Source of the DNA: Acidobacteriota bacterium
GTDB lineage: Bacteria; Acidobacteriota; Terriglobia; Terriglobales; Acidobacteriaceae
Reading direction: 5' to 3'
Assembly: GCA_016196065.1 (NCBI GenBank)
Contig: JACPYL010000012.1
Location: forward strand, 620,001 to 684,000
Length of the DNA: 64,000 nucleotides
Part shown: positions 411 to 62,494 of the stretch, piece by piece
Layout of the letters: each line of letters begins with the position of its first letter
Position numbering within the stretch: the stretch's first letter is position 1
Translations under genes and position numbers: made by a program
Notes under the pieces: generated by a model
The model's input: the letters and a program-made list of their open reading frames with translations, nothing else
What the model was told of the DNA's origin: nothing
The model's database searches: none

Positions 411-1400
<990 letters not shown>

Positions 1401-1629
1401 TCCGGCTTGGTTGGAGAAGAAGCGTTTACTGTGACGAGGCGTCAATGGGAAAGAAAGTGCATCTCAAACCTGTTCATTCCCCATTACTCAGCGGCGCAGT
1501 TGCGGAACGCGTGGAAGCCGACCATGAGTAGACTCGGACTCTGGTTCGCGGTTCGTGATGAGCCACGATCCCATCAACCATTCGGTAGTCTTTCAAAGAC
1601 TCCAATGGTCACCCGAGGTTCGTGTCAAA

Positions 1630-3420
1630 CTATTTGGGAGTGTCACGGGAAACCGGCCGAATCCGCTCGGCTGGAACGATCCCTTCCCCTTCCAGCAGAG
1701 CATAGAAGCGATCGGCGGCCAGGTTCGTGATCGTCTCAATTTTCCCGGAAGGCCAGCGGACCTCCAGCGACTCAATCTTCTCTGCCGACCCCAGCCCAAA
1801 GTGCAAACGAAAATCGTTCTGGGAGATGTAGCTACCGCCACTGTGAACCTCGTCGGTCTGCGTCATCCCTCCGGCGACGACCTTGACGCGCGCCCCGATT
1901 GCCATGCGATTGCTCTTCGTACCCGCCAGTTCCAGACTCACCCAGTGCCGGCCGGGAACACCGTGGTTCCGCAGGATCATCGGCGCGCTATCGAGATCCT
2001 CCACCACGACGTCCACATTGCCGTCGTTGAACAGATCCCCGATCGCCAGGCCCCGTGACACGCGCTTTTCTTGCAGAGCCGGTCCGGCCAGATTGCCGGC
2101 ATCACAGAAGGTGCCATCTTTCTGGTTCATGTGGAGCAGCTTCGGCTGCGCGTAACCACCGCTGGCAGGAACTTTTTCCATTTGCGGATAAACGTGACCG
2201 CTCACCGCCACCAGATCCAGCCAGCCATCGTTGTCGAGATCCACGAATGCATCGCCCCACTTCACAAGAGGAAAGGAGGGCAAGGCTACCCCTGAAGCAT
2301 AGGAGACATCCGTAAACATCCAGTTCCCGTCGTTGCGATACAGGTCGCTGTAGTCGTCGCCGAAATTTGTTACGTAGAGGGAAGGACGGCCATTGTGCAG
2401 GTAGTCGCCGAGAGCAACTCCCATGGAGGCTTGCTCAGATCCCGTCTCGCTCAACGCGGTGCCGGACTCGAGTCCCATCTCAGTGAACTTGCCTTTGCCG
2501 TCGTTGCGGTAAAGAAAGTTAGGCAGCGTGTCGTTGGCCACGTAGATGTCAGGCCAGCCGGTGTTGTTGAAGTCGGCCCAAACGACACCCAGACCGAAGT
2601 AACCGTGTGGGTCATCCACGCCGGCGGCCTTGGAAACGTCGGTAAACGTGCCATCGCCGTTGTTGTGGAACAGCGAATCGCCCGCGCCCTTCAATCCGCG
2701 CGGTCCGCAATAGACATCGATACCGCGATATTTGCAGAGTGACTTGCCGCCAAACGGGGGCAGATGGTCGAGTTGGAAGTCGACATAGTTGGCCACCATC
2801 AGGTCCACGAATCCGTCGCGGTCGTAATCTCCGAAAGCCGCACCCGCAGACATGCGGCCGTCCGCAACGCCGGCTTTCGCGGTGACATCCGTAAACGTGC
2901 CATCCCCGTTGTTGCGAAACAGCACATTTCCGCCGAGACACGTCAGGTACAGATCTGGCCAGCCGTCGTTGTTGTAGTCGGCCACTGCGCCGCCCATGGC
3001 GAAGCAAGGCGCTGCCAGGCCTGACTTGTCCGTCGCGTCGCTGAACGTGCCGTCGTGGTTGTTATGGTAGAGCGCTCCCCGAGCCGATTCCTTGCGCAGG
3101 GCCATCTCGACGGTAGGCGCGTTCGTGAAATAGATGTCCAACCAGCCATCGCGATCGTAATCCCACAAAATGACGCCGCCGCTCATCGACTCGACAATGT
3201 ATGTGCTCAGCGGATTGGCGGTATGCCGGAAGCGAATACCGGCCTTCTCCGTGATGTCCTCCAGTTGCGGTACTGGACGTCCTTTGCACTGAACCTTTTT
3301 GGCGTTCGGCGGCGGCGGAGGCGCGGCCGGATGCTGCTCCTGACTCAAAGCCATCGGTGCAAGCAGCACCGCTGCGCCGACGAGTAGGACGCGAATGCAA
3401 CGTAATGGTTGCGGATTCAA
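1630..3420 (-). CDS. Secreted FG-GAP/VCBS repeat protein with ASPIC/UnbV domain
   Basis: This protein of about 596 residues carries an N-terminal hydrophobic signal segment (VLLVGAAVLLAPMALSQ) followed by a long beta-propeller of FG-GAP/VCBS repeats. The repeats show as recurring D-Y/F-D/N-x-D-G-W-x-D motifs and NNGDGTF-D/TDV blocks. The C-terminus (SGGSYISQNDFRLHFGLG then VRWPSG) is the ASPIC/UnbV domain. The family is common in Acidobacteriota and Planctomycetes and is thought to be extracellular or cell-surface, probably calcium- and ligand-binding. I chose the TTG at 3420 because the ATG further upstream (3540) would overlap the TPR gene by about 100 bases. It lies 22 bases behind the TPR gene and is probably co-transcribed with it. 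The exact ligand is unknown. Confidence 0.9.
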   Translation of the reverse strand: MNPQPLRCIRVLLVGAAVLLAPMALSQEQHPAAPPPPPNAKKVQCKGRPVPQLEDITEKAGIRFRHTANPLSTYIVESMSGGVILWDYDRDGWLDIYFTNAPTVEMALRKESARGALYHNNHDGTFSDATDKSGLAAPCFAMGGAVADYNNDGWPDLYLTCLGGNVLFRNNGDGTFTDVTAKAGVADGRMSAGAAFGDYDRDGFVDLMVANYVDFQLDHLPPFGGKSLCKYRGIDVYCGPRGLKGAGDSLFHNNGDGTFTDVSKAAGVDDPHGYFGLGVVWADFNNTGWPDIYVANDTLPNFLYRNDGKGKFTEMGLESGTALSETGSEQASMGVALGDYLHNGRPSLYVTNFGDDYSDLYRNDGNWMFTDVSYASGVALPSFPLVKWGDAFVDLDNDGWLDLVAVSGHVYPQMEKVPASGGYAQPKLLHMNQKDGTFCDAGNLAGPALQEKRVSRGLAIGDLFNDGNVDVVVEDLDSAPMILRNHGVPGRHWVSLELAGTKSNRMAIGARVKVVAGGMTQTDEVHSGGSYISQNDFRLHFGLGSAEKIESLEVRWPSGKIETITNLAADRFYALLEGEGIVPAERIRPVSRDTPK

Positions 3421-3442
3421 TTGATGTCCGTCGCGCTCAAGT

Positions 3443-5125
3443 TCATGGCTTCTTGTCTTCCTTCTTTTGCGGAACCTGCGCGGGGACAGTCGCCCCCAGT
3501 TCTCGCAGAGCCGAGCGAGCCGCATCATCACCCGGAGCAAGTGCCAGCGCCTTTCGCAAGGCCCGGATTGCTTCTGGCTGGTTCCCGGCGCGATAGGCCG
3601 TGAACCCGAGATTGCGCATCAGGTTGGGTACTTTGGGATCCCATCCCTCCGCTTCCTGGTAGTGTCCGAGAGCTACGGCATACCGCTTCTGCATTGCTTC
3701 GATCGTGGCCAGATCATTGAAGGCAACGCCCAGAACAGAACGCAAGAATTCCTCCTGGGCCGCTGCCTGTCTCTTCTGGTCCTGCGTCAGCTTGGCGTGC
3801 GACAGCGCGTTGCTGCCTAACGGCGTGGCCGCATCCTTGCCCGTCGCTCCCAGAGGAACCGGCGGCTCGTTTTGCGCAAGGCTGGGGACATCGGCTGAAG
3901 AAACTCCGGATCCACCCGAATCACCCATGCCGCTGCCTTCCTGGTTGTCGGCGATGATTTTTTGCTGAATCGCGCGCGCCTTTTCGAAGTATCGCTCCCC
4001 TTCCGCCGCTCGTCCGGAAGCAATGAGGATCCGGCCAAGACTGGTGTAGGCTTTCCGGATATCGGTGTGAGCGTCTACGCCGCTACGCTCGGCGAGTGCA
4101 ATTGCCTTGCGGAAGAGCCGCTCCGCGCTCTGATTTTCCTTGCGGCGGTAGGCATTCAGTCCCAAGTACAGCCAGGCTTCCGATGAAGACGGATTCAATC
4201 TCGCCGCCTCCCCCAGATAGTGATCCGCCTCCTGCGGCTGGTTCGAACTGAACGCCGTATAGCCCAGGAGATAGTTCGCGAAAGAATTTCCAGGGTCAAC
4301 TCGCAGTTGCTCGAGAAATTGGCGGCGGGCCTCCGGCGTGAGCACCCATTCGTTCTGCATCAAGTAGGTCAGGCCGAGAAAGTAGTGGCCGTTTGGAACC
4401 TTTGGATCGAGTGAGAGCGCACGTTGGAACTCCCGGATAGCGTCGTCATACAGGGAGGCATTTCGATAAGCGACGCCGAACAAGAGATGCAGGCTGCTGC
4501 GATCACCGGACGCCACCGTGATCTGCTGGAAAATGGCCGCGGCCTTTTCCTTCTCTTTCAATCGGAGCAAACAACTGGCGAGACCGTAGCTGGTTTCGCG
4601 GTCAGGACGAATCTCGAGGGACTTCTGGAAAGACTCGACCGAGGCGCGGTAGTCCTTTTTCTTGACCTGCGCCTGGCCCTGAATGGTCCAGGCCGCGGCG
4701 TTGCGCGGATCGGCGGCAAGAGCCTGGCCGATCTCTTTGAGTGCTTCGTCCAACCGGCTGGTAAACAAGTTGGCCGCGGCGAGATCGACGCGCGCATCGG
4801 CAACATCCTCGAACTCGAGGGACCTGCGGGAGAACCGGGCGGCCTCGGGATATGCGGCTTCAAAGAGGCGCAACTTTCCCATTTCGCGGAGTCCGAGGGC
4901 GACGATCTTCTCGCTGGCGGCAGCGACAGCGGGCATGTCTCCCGCCTCCTTCGCCAAGTTCACAGCGGCAAATCGCGGCTCAAATTCGTCGACGAGTGAC
5001 GAGTGCTTCTGTTGCGCGCTGGCTTGCAGGCACCCCAAAACGGCAAGCAGGAAAAGGCACCCGCCCCGCGCAGACCGTCCCCAGAGAGTGAAGTTAGAAG
5101 ACCGGGAAAGTGGGGTGTGGATCAA
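3443..5125 (-). CDS. Secreted tetratricopeptide-repeat protein
   Basis: This is a TPR protein of about 560 residues. A signal-peptide-like segment (CLFLLAVLGCLQASA) is followed by many 34-residue TPR units, such as AAAWTIQGQAQVKKKDYRASVE and PNGHYFLGLTYLMQNEW, then a low-complexity linker (NQEGSGMGDSGGSG) and two more TPRs near the C-terminus. It most likely works as a scaffold in the periplasm or outside the cell. I prefer the TTG at 5125, with GGGA about nine bases upstream and the signal peptide close behind; a GTG at 5236 would add 37 residues with no evident ribosome site. It lies directly upstream of the ASPIC/UnbV gene, a pairing often seen in this phylum. Confidence 0.88.
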   Translation of the reverse strand: MIHTPLSRSSNFTLWGRSARGGCLFLLAVLGCLQASAQQKHSSLVDEFEPRFAAVNLAKEAGDMPAVAAASEKIVALGLREMGKLRLFEAAYPEAARFSRRSLEFEDVADARVDLAAANLFTSRLDEALKEIGQALAADPRNAAAWTIQGQAQVKKKDYRASVESFQKSLEIRPDRETSYGLASCLLRLKEKEKAAAIFQQITVASGDRSSLHLLFGVAYRNASLYDDAIREFQRALSLDPKVPNGHYFLGLTYLMQNEWVLTPEARRQFLEQLRVDPGNSFANYLLGYTAFSSNQPQEADHYLGEAARLNPSSSEAWLYLGLNAYRRKENQSAERLFRKAIALAERSGVDAHTDIRKAYTSLGRILIASGRAAEGERYFEKARAIQQKIIADNQEGSGMGDSGGSGVSSADVPSLAQNEPPVPLGATGKDAATPLGSNALSHAKLTQDQKRQAAAQEEFLRSVLGVAFNDLATIEAMQKRYAVALGHYQEAEGWDPKVPNLMRNLGFTAYRAGNQPEAIRALRKALALAPGDDAARSALRELGATVPAQVPQKKEDKKP

Positions 5126-13028: not shown

Positions 13029-15245
13029 ATGCAGCCGTTCAACGAACATTTCGATGTGGTCGTAGTCGGCGCCGGCCATGCCGGATGCGAGGCCGCGATG
13101 GCTTCCGCGCGCATGGGACTGAAGACCGCCCTCTTTACCTTGAACGTCGATCTGATCGCGCAGATGTCCTGCAATCCCGCCATCGGCGGTATCGCAAAAG
13201 GACACCTCGTCCGCGAAGTCGACGCTCTCGGCGGCATCATGGGTGAGATTACCGACGCGGTGGGAATCCAGTTTCGCCTGCTCAATACTTCCCGCGGCCC
13301 CGCCGTCTGGTCGCCGCGAGCGCAATGCGACAAGCAAGCCTACCGCCTGAAAATGCGGGAAGTTCTCGAATCGCAACCGAATCTCAGCATCAAGCAGGCT
13401 GAAGTAGCGGATGTGATTCTGGAGTCGTCGTTGGTCGATCGTCCTTCGCCATTCGCGGATCCTCCTCAGCACAGTCATCCCGATCGAAGCGAAGGATGTG
13501 CAGGAGCGAACAGCGAAGGGCGAACAGCGAACGACGCTCTAGGCGGCCGCATCATCCGGGGTATAGCCCTGCGCGACGGCCGCCGCGTGGCTGCGCGCGC
13601 CGTCATCATCACCACCGGCACGTTTCTCAACGGGCTCATCCATTGCGGCGAACAACAATATCCTGCTGGACGCTCTGGCGAGCCGAACGCCGTCCTACTC
13701 GGCGAAGCATTGAAGAATCTCGGCCTGCGTGGATGCCGCCTCAAGACCGGCACTCCGCCCCGCCTCGACGGGCGCACCATCGACTGGTCGAAGTTCGCCG
13801 AGCAACCCGGCGACATTGATCCCACGCCCTTCAGCTTCCGTACCAAACGCGTAGCGCATCACGACACGCAAGTCCCATGCTTCATCGCGTTCACCACCGA
13901 AGAAACGCACAGGGTCATCCGTGAAAACGTTCATCGCTCGCCGATGTATAGCGGGCAGATTCAATCCGTCGGACCGCGTTACTGTCCCTCGATCGAAGAC
14001 AAGATCGTAAAATTTCCCGACAAACTCACGCATCAACTCTTCCTCGAGCCGGAAGGCCTGAACACGCACGAGATCTACGTGAACGGCATGAGCACGTCGC
14101 TGCCAATTGACGTGCAGCTGGCGATTCTCAAGTCGATTCCCGGCCTCGATACCGCCGAGATGATGCGGCCCGGTTACGCCATTGAGTACGACTCGATCGA
14201 TCCCACCGAACTGCATCGCACGCTCGAGACGAAGAAAATCTCCGGACTCTTTCTCGCCGGGCAAATCAACGGCACCTCCGGATACGAAGAAGCCGCCTGC
14301 CAGGGACTGATGGCCGGAATCAACGCTGCCCTGCAAGTCAAAGCGGAGCCGCCGCTGATCCTAGATCGCACCGAAGCCTATACCGCGATCCTGATCGACG
14401 ACCTGATTTCAAAAGGCACGAACGAGCCGTACCGGATGTTTACGTCCCGCGCCGAGTTCCGCTTGCACCTGCGAATCGACAACGCCGACCGCCGCCTCAC
14501 TCCCTACGGACGCCGCGTCGGTCTGATCAACGACCAGGCATGGTCCGATTTCGACGCCAAGCAGAAGCGTCTGGAAGGCATGCGCGCGTTGTTGGAGAAG
14601 ACGCGATTTACATCGGGCATGCTCGACCTGATTTCGGCAGAGCCTGGGAGCCAATCACCCGAAACGGGAGGGCACGACTCTAGTCGTGCCGCAAAGTTCC
14701 CTGATTCGACTGCGGCTTTAGCCGCCGGGGCTGAAGCCCAATTCATGGGGAGCGCTATTAGCACGGCTGAAGCCGTGCCCTCCCGTTCTCTGCGCGCCAC
14801 TCTGGGCCAACCTCTTGCGCAACTCCTGAAGCGCCCTGAAATCACGATCGAAACTCTGGTTCCCGCGTTGCGCACACTCGCGCCAGATTTTTTTGACGAG
14901 TCTTCCTCCGTGAACCCCGTGACCTCCGTGGTTAAGATTTCGTCGTCCGTCCGCAACGAACTCAAATCCCTCGAAACCGAAATAAAATACGCCGGCTATC
15001 TCGACCAGCAGCAACGTGCCATCGACCGCCTGAAGAAATCCGAACAGCGCCGCATCCCCGAATGGTTTGACTATCGCGCCGTTAGCGGCCTTTCCCGCGA
15101 GATGCAGGAAAAACTGGGCCATGTAACGCCGCAAACCCTGGGACAAGCCTCCCGCATTCCCGGCGTAACTCCCGCCGCCGTGTCGCTCATCAACGTCTTT
15201 ATCGAAATTCAAGCGAAGCGCCGCGAACAGGCGTCCGCGCTGTAA
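13029..15245 (+). CDS. mnmG: tRNA uridine-5-carboxymethylaminomethyl(34) synthesis enzyme MnmG, with insertions
   Basis: MnmG (GidA) binds FAD and, with MnmE, modifies U34 of certain tRNAs. This copy starts at the ATG at 13029 with the FAD-binding [13 protein letters not shown] at residues 10-22, followed by family blocks [65 protein letters not shown] and a C-terminal [10 protein letters not shown] / [13 protein letters not shown]. It has 738 residues against about 620-630 for typical MnmG. The extra length comes from three in-frame, repeat-derived segments near nucleotides 13441-13545, 14645-14800 and 14897-14950, all in surface-loop positions. No MnmE gene is in the window. The core motifs are intact, so it is probably functional. 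Confidence 0.95.
13474..13504. repeat. GTCATCC-type repeat fragment inside mnmG
   Basis: GTCATCCCGATCGAAGCGAA and the following GGATGTGCAGG match the form of the intergenic repeats at 45257-45283 and 50028-50088 (GTCATCCTGAGCGA../ATCATCCTGAACGA..). It codes for [11 protein letters not shown] in an extra loop of MnmG. Confidence 0.6.
14663..14787. repeat. REP/BIME-like palindromic array inside mnmG
   Basis: This 125-bp element has a perfect 14-bp terminal inverted repeat (AACGGGAGGGCACG at 14663-14676, CGTGCCCTCCCGTT at 14774-14787). Four hairpins lie inside: 14671-14690, 14712-14725 (GCGGCT-TT-AGCCGC), 14728-14739 (GGGCT-GA-AGCCC) and 14761-14778 (GCACGGCT-GA-AGCCGTGC). It is read through in frame as part of MnmG. 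The GGCTGAAGCC core matches the hairpins at the RAYT gene at 61.8 kb. Confidence 0.85.
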
Positions 15246-61792: not shown

Positions 61793-62494
61793 CGCAGGGA
61801 TTCGTATCAGGATACGGCTTCAGCCGTATCGCTCAAGCGGCGAAATTGACGGGCTTCAGCCCCTGCGGTGGCGGATCGAGTGCGAATCCCGGATGCGCCG
61901 ACGAAAACGCATACTGATCCGGTGTCAGGACCAATCGTCGCTTTACGGGATTGTTGCGAATGTACTCTTGAACCTGCGCGAACGCTGATTCGTCCACGAT
62001 TCGGACTTCGGAAAAACCTTTCTGCCAGAATGGCGCTTTCACGCCCAGTTCCTTGCCAGCTCGGAACGCGAATCTGCCCTTGATGAACTGGACAGCCTTC
62101 TCAATACTGATCTCGCTTCCCACCGTGAGCAGCATATGAAAGTGGTCTGGCATGACCACGAATTCATGCAGTCGGAACTTCCCCTGTGCGCGATATTCGT
62201 AGAGCACTGTGAGAAACAATCCTGCAGCGCCGTTAAATTGAAGCAAGTTGCGTTTGTCCCACGTGGAAGAGGTCACGAAGAAGGTGCGGGCGTTGGATGC
62301 GATCTGCTCAGGTTCAGCGTTGCGCGGAGGGATGGACATTGGACGAAGATGAATTGTGGCGGGCTGGGTTGTATGTGACCCGCGTACGAGAGAAATGTGA
62401 TGATTCCGAAACGAGCCCCAGCGCCTGAAGGCGGGAATCTCTTTGGCGCTGTTGCGGCACGCCTGAAAGGCGTGCCCTGATACGAACCTGCGCG
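61793..62494. mobile_element. RAYT element with REP-like hairpins and terminal inverted repeat
   Basis: A perfect 10-bp inverted repeat (TTCGTATCAG at 61801-61810, CTGATACGAA at 62477-62486), extended on both sides by CGCAGG-type flanks to about 61793 and 62494, encloses the RAYT gene. Left hairpins: GATACGGCT-TC-AGCCGTATC (61811-61830) and GGGCT-TC-AGCCC (61851-61862). Right hairpins: CGCCT-GA-AGGCG (62422-62433) and GGCACGCCT-GAA-AGGCGTGCC (62456-62476). Total length about 0.7 kb. Confidence 0.8.
61833..62339 (-). CDS. REP-associated tyrosine transposase (RAYT)
   Basis: This is a 168-residue single-strand HUH nuclease of the Y1/TnpA-REP group, which mobilises REP palindromes. ATG at 62339 (MSIPPRNAEPEQIASNARTFFVTSSTWDKRNLLQ). 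The His-hydrophobic-His motif is MPDHFHMLLTV, and the catalytic Tyr is probably the one in QEYIRNNPVKRRLV. The N-terminal FFVTSSTW strand is like RAYT proteins. The 3' end of the gene includes the GGGCTTCAGCCCC hairpin of its own left REP (GLKPVNFAA end). Intact by inspection. Confidence 0.92.
   Translation of the reverse strand: MSIPPRNAEPEQIASNARTFFVTSSTWDKRNLLQFNGAAGLFLTVLYEYRAQGKFRLHEFVVMPDHFHMLLTVGSEISIEKAVQFIKGRFAFRAGKELGVKAPFWQKGFSEVRIVDESAFAQVQEYIRNNPVKRRLVLTPDQYAFSSAHPGFALDPPPQGLKPVNFAA

Follow-up and report, generated by a model that had tools for sequence, protein, structure and literature searches.

How does a conserved gene come to carry palindromic repeat DNA as part of its own coding sequence? 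This question is raised by the mnmG (gidA) gene of a soil acidobacterium (genome G000), which we analysed within a window of 64,000 nucleotides, that is, the whole stretch of DNA under study. The gene lies on the + strand, from an ATG at position 13029 to position 15245, encodes 738 residues in one uninterrupted frame and contains three extra loops that resemble repeats dispersed in the genome.

The mnmG gene and the array in its second loop

The product was identified by the equivalog model TIGR00136, which matched above its cut-off in three stretches (807 bits), and by three MnmG Pfam domains in a Pfam scan. The initial annotation, which placed an in-frame array within an intact-looking MnmG of 738 residues, was thus correct. 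The protein exceeds the median of a named set (629 residues) by about 109 residues, about 42 of which are accounted for by the array of loop 2; the earlier figure of some 40 extra residues therefore suits the array and understates the total surplus. In the AlphaFold model (numbering equal to that of MnmG + 1), which was built on a shallow alignment of 29 sequences and has low pLDDT in some core stretches too, pLDDT falls below 50 at residues 138–172, 541–582 and 627–635, and each of these stretches is flanked by regular secondary structure (helices or strands). The predicted core superposes on MnmG, as expected of a member of this fold. As modelled, the three extra loops fit disordered, permissive segments.

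The array occupies positions 14663–14787 (+ strand, residues ~545–587). As initially described, it is bounded by a perfect 14-nt terminal inverted repeat, whose left arm (AACGGGAGGGCACG, 14663–14676, + strand) pairs with the right arm at 14774–14787 (− strand). No other perfect 14-nt inverted pair within 130 nt was found in the window, and such pairs were present in 1 of 100 triplet-shuffled windows. Between the ends lie two copies of a two-hairpin repeat unit that we call R1: unit 1 at 14665–14730 (+ strand, 66 nt, 68.7 bits), where the frame reads GGHDSSRA..., and unit 2 at 14722–14785 (− strand, 64 nt, 67.3 bits), where it reads ..STAEAVPSR. The units stand tail to tail with a 9-nt overlap, forming a BIME-like pair. 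Four hairpin cores had been described as all of the GGCTGAAGCC type; all four are present, the wording being slightly loose since three are GGCTNNAGCC (14714, 14729 and 14765) and one, near 14680, is GACTCTAGTC. When compared with 200 shuffles, the array folded better than all of them, both as DNA (z −5.45) and as RNA (z −7.66; −75.1 kcal/mol). No Rfam family was found at gathering score in the 64-kb window, and at the array the coding strand shows no terminator-like site. The array is real; however, since 125 is not divisible by 3, the inserted block cannot equal exactly these 125 bases.

The R1 repeat and its distribution

To define the repeat we used a covariance model built from 18 copies of the G000 genome, among which were both mnmG units. 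The R1 unit measures about 64 nt, comprises two hairpins and reads CGGGAGGGCACGGCTTCAGCCGTGCCGC, about 20 variable bases, GGGGCTTTAGCCCCTGAGG; the consensus of the 18 units starts with CGGGAGGG and finishes with CTGNGG. Both stems covary, 95.3% of the cells being paired compared with 27–51% when the stems were slid. The unit looks like the two-hairpin ends found around a Y1 transposase. The array had been called REP/BIME-like, and the inverted arrangement and the many copies agree with this, whereas the consensus has neither the GTAG nor the CGTC tag of classical REPs.

Searching the genome with the whole array gave 22 DNA matches, itself included, and the hairpin pattern gave 27+28 matches on the two strands compared with 2+0 for the reversed control; as the pattern is almost a palindrome, most of these sites appear in both counts. 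The covariance model gave 100 matches at E <= 0.01 (150 of 2062 candidates scored). The initial annotation had made its reading depend on the existence of other genomic copies, and these clearly exist. R1 was also present in 23 of the 24 genomes of a genus search, the acidobacterium itself included, with a mean of about 73 matches per genome. The exception, G022, belongs to the same genus and is 95% complete; in this genome glmS is present and no MnmG match was found at E <= 1e-80.

We then looked at the position of the copies relative to genes, using 99 of the 100 matches (the weakest, C18:290771, was left out). Sixty of the 99 had no spanning ORF, defined as an ORF of at least 100 codons that extends 15 residues beyond either side of the repeat. 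Pfam was run on 32 of the 44 distinct spanning ORFs, the other 12 being short, nested or antisense, and a Pfam-negative spanning ORF may still be a gene. Five of the 99 units lay inside Pfam-recognised genes: the two of mnmG and one each in a valS-like gene, a histidine kinase gene and a penicillin amidase gene, the last being a weak match (25 bits). Where a unit lay close to the start of a gene, at loci L095, L179 and L110 (a TPP/POR, a BPD transporter and an amidohydrolase gene), it was not counted as lying in that gene. R1 is thus a high-copy dispersed palindrome found mostly outside recognisable genes, and the expectation that repeats of this kind avoid genes holds for most of its copies. 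A classifier based on codon usage had a single clear in-gene call, mnmG unit 1, and, combined with a 40-residue rule, missed the valS-like gene; as it was weak, the figures given above come from ORF spans and Pfam instead.

In the valS-like gene (L096, G000:C12:165620-168684; tRNA-synt_1, 358 bits), which we take to be such from motifs such as PPPNVTG, the unit at 1501–1565 is in frame and sits between the N-terminal segment and PPPNVTG. The same gene also holds a second in-frame palindrome, GGCGGGCGGGGGCGCCCGCC. In the histidine kinase gene (L136, G000:C12:455024-458090), an R1-like unit at 1501–1567 (39 bits) lies in frame inside the HATPase_c domain.

Repeats in the mnmG loops of related species

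The phenomenon is wider than the single array first noticed. In a sample of 30 mnmG genes, that of G000 included (7 of 61 genomes gave no match at E <= 1e-80, among them G003, which is rated 100% complete), R1 was found inside mnmG in five, namely in G000 and in four other species. All three loops and both orientations are represented: loop 2 in G000 (both orientations) and G006 (forward), loop 1 in G036 (forward) and G028 (reverse), and loop 3 in G026 (forward). The units of the four other species scored 56–63 bits, and none of them had been used to build the R1 model. The array is not a lone insertion event, given these four species and the repeat-like character of the other two loops. None of the 30 genes has a stop within its match, and in all of them the frame continues into the conserved C-terminal segment.

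On the phylogenetic trees, one of 37 rows with some loop columns kept and one rebuilt on 30 rows with the loop columns removed, the presence of R1 in mnmG required five changes, at least three of which are forced by supported branches. Joining the two loop-2 cases (L023 and L027) was rejected only marginally (p-AU 0.046), so these two copies might share one origin. In L033, a weak, remnant-like R1 match lies at the loop-2 place (15.8 bits, E 0.05). Among 33 named loci no unit was found inside mnmG, the three matches obtained all belonging to L216 and falling outside its mnmG match (1201–3477).

As a control we used glmS, in 16 loci from the genus and 14 from a sister family, some of the genes being partial. 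No R1 unit was found inside glmS in these 30 loci, where the three matches were all outside the gene. Restricted to the genus the contrast is weak (0 of 16 for glmS compared with 2 of 17 for mnmG), the other three mnmG cases belonging to genera with no glmS sample. If about 73 units per genome, a density borrowed from the genus-search genomes, were evenly scattered, roughly 0.9 units would be expected in 29 genes of 2.1 kb, compared with the four units seen outside the window.

The reading frame was also examined. The four forward units in mnmG share one frame, as do both reverse units. Those of G000 and G006 are open in no forward frame other than the one used, and their frame is therefore dictated. 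The 18 other G000 copies scoring at least 60 bits are open 8, 8 and 8 times in the three forward frames. The histidine kinase copy uses a different frame from the mnmG units, and the common mnmG frame is therefore a tendency.

The other two loops of the G000 protein contain other repeats. Loop 1 (approximately 13427–13541, + strand, residues ~134–174) is an in-frame foldback of 7-nt repeats, whose middle (approximately 13473–13502, + strand) is GTCATCCCGATCGAAGCGAAGGATGTGC-like, with pieces that match elsewhere in the genome, and whose centre reads GTCATCCCGA..GAAGGAT. With up to 3 mismatches, the heptamer pattern occurs 66+72 times in the genome compared with 7+4 for the reversed control. Besides mnmG, 7-nt foldbacks of 66–154 nt were outlined at 8 further places, 5 of which have no spanning ORF; the 7-nt foldback of L056 lies directly upstream of a gene that is presumably folD-like. 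In the arrays checked, the TGA of the heptamer motif occurs out of frame only. Loop 3 (14915–14936, + strand) reads CCCCGTGACCTCCGTGGTTAAG, an in-frame copy of a dispersed CTCCGTG repeat. With 3 mismatches allowed, the consensus of this repeat gave 17+14 matches in the genome, the loop-3 copy being one of them, compared with 0 in the control.

The 7-nt period of loop 1 extends to the relatives: identity was highest at lags 7 (0.449) and 14 (0.391), every other lag between 3 and 15 giving 0.21–0.31, and the period was detected at p <= 0.01 in 22 of 27 family members (all except L031, L032, L043, L047 and L051). The heptamer type differs among species, yet within a species the two arms match on average. 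In 29 genes, pairing between a gene's own two arms gave −40.0 kcal/mol compared with −31.0 kcal/mol (sd 1.28) for permuted arms, a value reached in 0 of 10000 permutations; in five genes (L027, L038, L039, L041 and L042) the arm matching ranked 17th or worse of 29. Most species (window 13427–13541, relatives L024–L052) thus display a concerted pattern of the two arms.

Loop 2 varies in every relative compared. No empty site was found among them, and because of this variation neither the boundaries of the insert nor a target duplication could be read. Some of the loops are short. In other species loop 2 contains different palindromes, of GTAGGG..GCCGAGCAAAGCTCGGC types in L024, L030 and L221, GTCCAAGTCGAGCGCAGCTCGAC-like in L028, L029, L034 and L042, and of further kinds elsewhere; with patterns made for two of these palindromes, 8 of the 9 genomes searched had matches beyond mnmG, compared with 0 in the control. 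Loops 2 and 3 were read directly in 22 of 31 genes, and hairpins were counted in all 30 genes via the alignment: loop 2 contains 15 strong hairpins, that is, 8.8 per kb compared with 0.55 per kb in the core, while shuffled loops gave a mean of 0.94 and a maximum of 3. Eleven of the 30 genes have a strong loop-2 hairpin and 19 have none. Relatives, too, have an extra loop 2, which in part of them contains palindromes belonging to other families and in others contains none; the check proposed in the initial annotation, whether close relatives share the loop but lack a palindromic signature, thus has a mixed outcome.

Candidate origin of the loops and known systems

Which enzyme could have moved the repeat? 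The initial annotation pointed to a RAYT element at 61.8 kb. The gene found there (61833–62339, − strand, with a presumed ATG start at 62339 in an ORF extending to 62570) encodes a predicted Y1 transposase (PF01797) of RAYT/TIRYT type, in whose translation HFH is seen. A diverged R1-like unit (61805–61868, + strand, 47.6 bits) covers its 3' end and overlaps the last codons, and a second one, inverted relative to the first (62416–62482, − strand, 41.4 bits), lies upstream of the presumed start. Inverted units thus stand on both sides of a predicted Y1 HUH transposase, as in a TIRYT, for a diverged subfamily. The final codons of this ORF coincide with its own 3' terminal repeat over 61833–61868. 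These units end in TTCGTATCAGG, compared with CGGGAGGG for the mnmG units, and because the terminal sequences differ, the 61.8-kb transposase is a relative and not an established mover. The kinship suggested in the initial annotation was thus confirmed. Y1 transposases were matched 6 times in the genome. In none of these 6 genes are the ends full CGGGAGGG units, the remaining 5 had no R1 unit at their ends (E <= 0.05), and the cognate transposase was not found in this set. Four other Y1 genes (L294, L295, L296 and L299) each have their own long flanking inverted repeats. The diverged units around the 61.8-kb gene link the R1 kind of repeat to IS200-like HUH transposases, in line with what PMC3733652 describes for the TIRtrons of Acidobacteria.

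Altogether, these data make it quite probable that transposase-related repeats were copied into mnmG and are carried there as disordered in-frame loops, with separate recurrences in other species. The array consists of two inverted copies of a dispersed two-hairpin repeat, REP/TIR-like and related to the sequences that border an IS200-like HUH (Y1) transposase in this genome. It would have been copied, either by a transposase or through recombination, to a place where mnmG codes for a surface loop without fixed structure. Cells would have retained it because it was free of stops, or mutated to be so, and of a length that preserved the frame, and in MnmG it would form a disordered stretch of about 42 residues. 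The process would have been repeated separately in other species, in other loops and with other repeats: the 7-nt foldbacks in loop 1, the CTCCGTG repeat in loop 3 and the other palindromes in loop 2. The identity of the repeat, its open frame, its recurrence and its rarity in recognisable genes are established; such a course of events further supposes that the repeats are mobile, that the loops are translated and that the enzyme is unharmed. Much more tentatively, the three loops may, in this acidobacterial family, be standing landing sites at which at least four unrelated families of dispersed foldbacks have time and again been made into protein, the matched loop-1 arms suggesting that the structure itself, as DNA or RNA, would be maintained in addition to the open frame.

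The loops could also have grown in place, by hairpin-templated repair and slippage and with no insertion of a mobile element. The loop-1 heptamers, species-specific in type and with matching arms, are what concerted hairpin change would give, and the 7-nt period is widespread in the family. We nevertheless regard such growth as unlikely, since the 7-nt foldbacks are dispersed in the genome, 5 of the 8 outlined besides that of mnmG having no spanning ORF and the pattern being well in excess of the control, since the loop-2 array fits the fixed two-hairpin layout of R1 (with the reservation that both units are among the 18 model sequences), and since units from outside the model score 56–63 bits in four other species, which slippage does not yield. 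Rather less probable, in our opinion, is that the loops are kept by selection because they are useful, the mRNA hairpin slowing ribosomes or protecting the transcript, or the peptide making a contact. The strong RNA fold, the pairing of the loop-1 arms and the fact that one gene was hit in five species speak for a use; however, neither length nor repeat family nor sequence is conserved, most of the genes do without a strong loop-2 hairpin and some loops are short. That the array results from an assembly or gene-prediction artefact, and lies outside the working mnmG frame, is very hard to believe. The relatives are for the most part draft assemblies that differ in completeness, several genomes gave no match, and a contig-end fragment from G019, which was not among the 30 genes fetched, has an internal TGA. 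The G000 assembly, however, is rated 100% complete with 0.32% contamination, all 30 genes are open as far as the conserved C-terminal segment, and the heptamer TGA stays out of frame in the 7-nt arrays. The copying of transposase-related repeats into mnmG is thus the explanation that we prefer. It offers a single conserved gene into whose coding sequence numerous sister species have taken up unlike, selfish-looking repeats. With such a gene one can test how new stretches of protein arise from mobile DNA that was non-coding, what makes certain enzymes permissive, and whether an mRNA with a strong internal foldback is selected for or just tolerated.

Several known systems resemble this one. The array shares with BIMEs and REPINs two inverted units that form one long foldback, and differs from them by its location inside a gene; the definition of REPINs reportedly comes from Pseudomonas. 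As described in PMC3733652, TIRtrons combine a Y1 transposase with inverted ends, some of which are double palindromes and some families of which are also dispersed, and the TIRYTs of Koribacter and other Acidobacteria make up a separate group; here, the ends of the mnmG units differ from those of the 61.8-kb transposase. The same paper describes intragenic GTAG/CGTC REPs in uvrA of Opitutus terrae, recB of Xanthomonas and genes for tRNA enzymes, DNA-repair and tRNA genes being prominent among the targets of singles and dimers; dimers or groups encode 20–30 residues and larger clusters 43–82. Units and dimers within genes are thus shared with our case, whereas the R1 consensus lacks GTAG and CGTC. 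The main text of PMC3733652, whose list of target ORFs is in Additional file 3, has no occurrence of mnmG or gidA. Among the papers listed in our literature searches, we found no Acidobacteriota case of in-frame palindromes and no gene with three loops colonised by unrelated repeats across a family. Searches for heptameric repeats in Acidobacteria and for palindromic repeats with MnmG gave no relevant literature, and nothing on such repeats was found in the available part of PMC3174227.

A further likeness is to the Rickettsia palindromic elements. According to PMC3767692 and PMC10969869, these elements of 100–150 bp lie inside ORFs without breaking the frame, orthologues carry them at similar sites, and in some genes different groups are found near each other. 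Palindromes are likewise in frame in conserved genes here, in mnmG of five species and in the valS-like gene. The likeness is one of description. The two cases differ in that the phylum is another one, most R1 copies lie outside recognisable genes, and several unrelated kinds of repeat occur in one protein. Our data would add the Acidobacteriota to the published hosts of protein-coding palindromes considered here, namely Rickettsia, Wolbachia and some scattered carriers of REPs, Opitutus among them.
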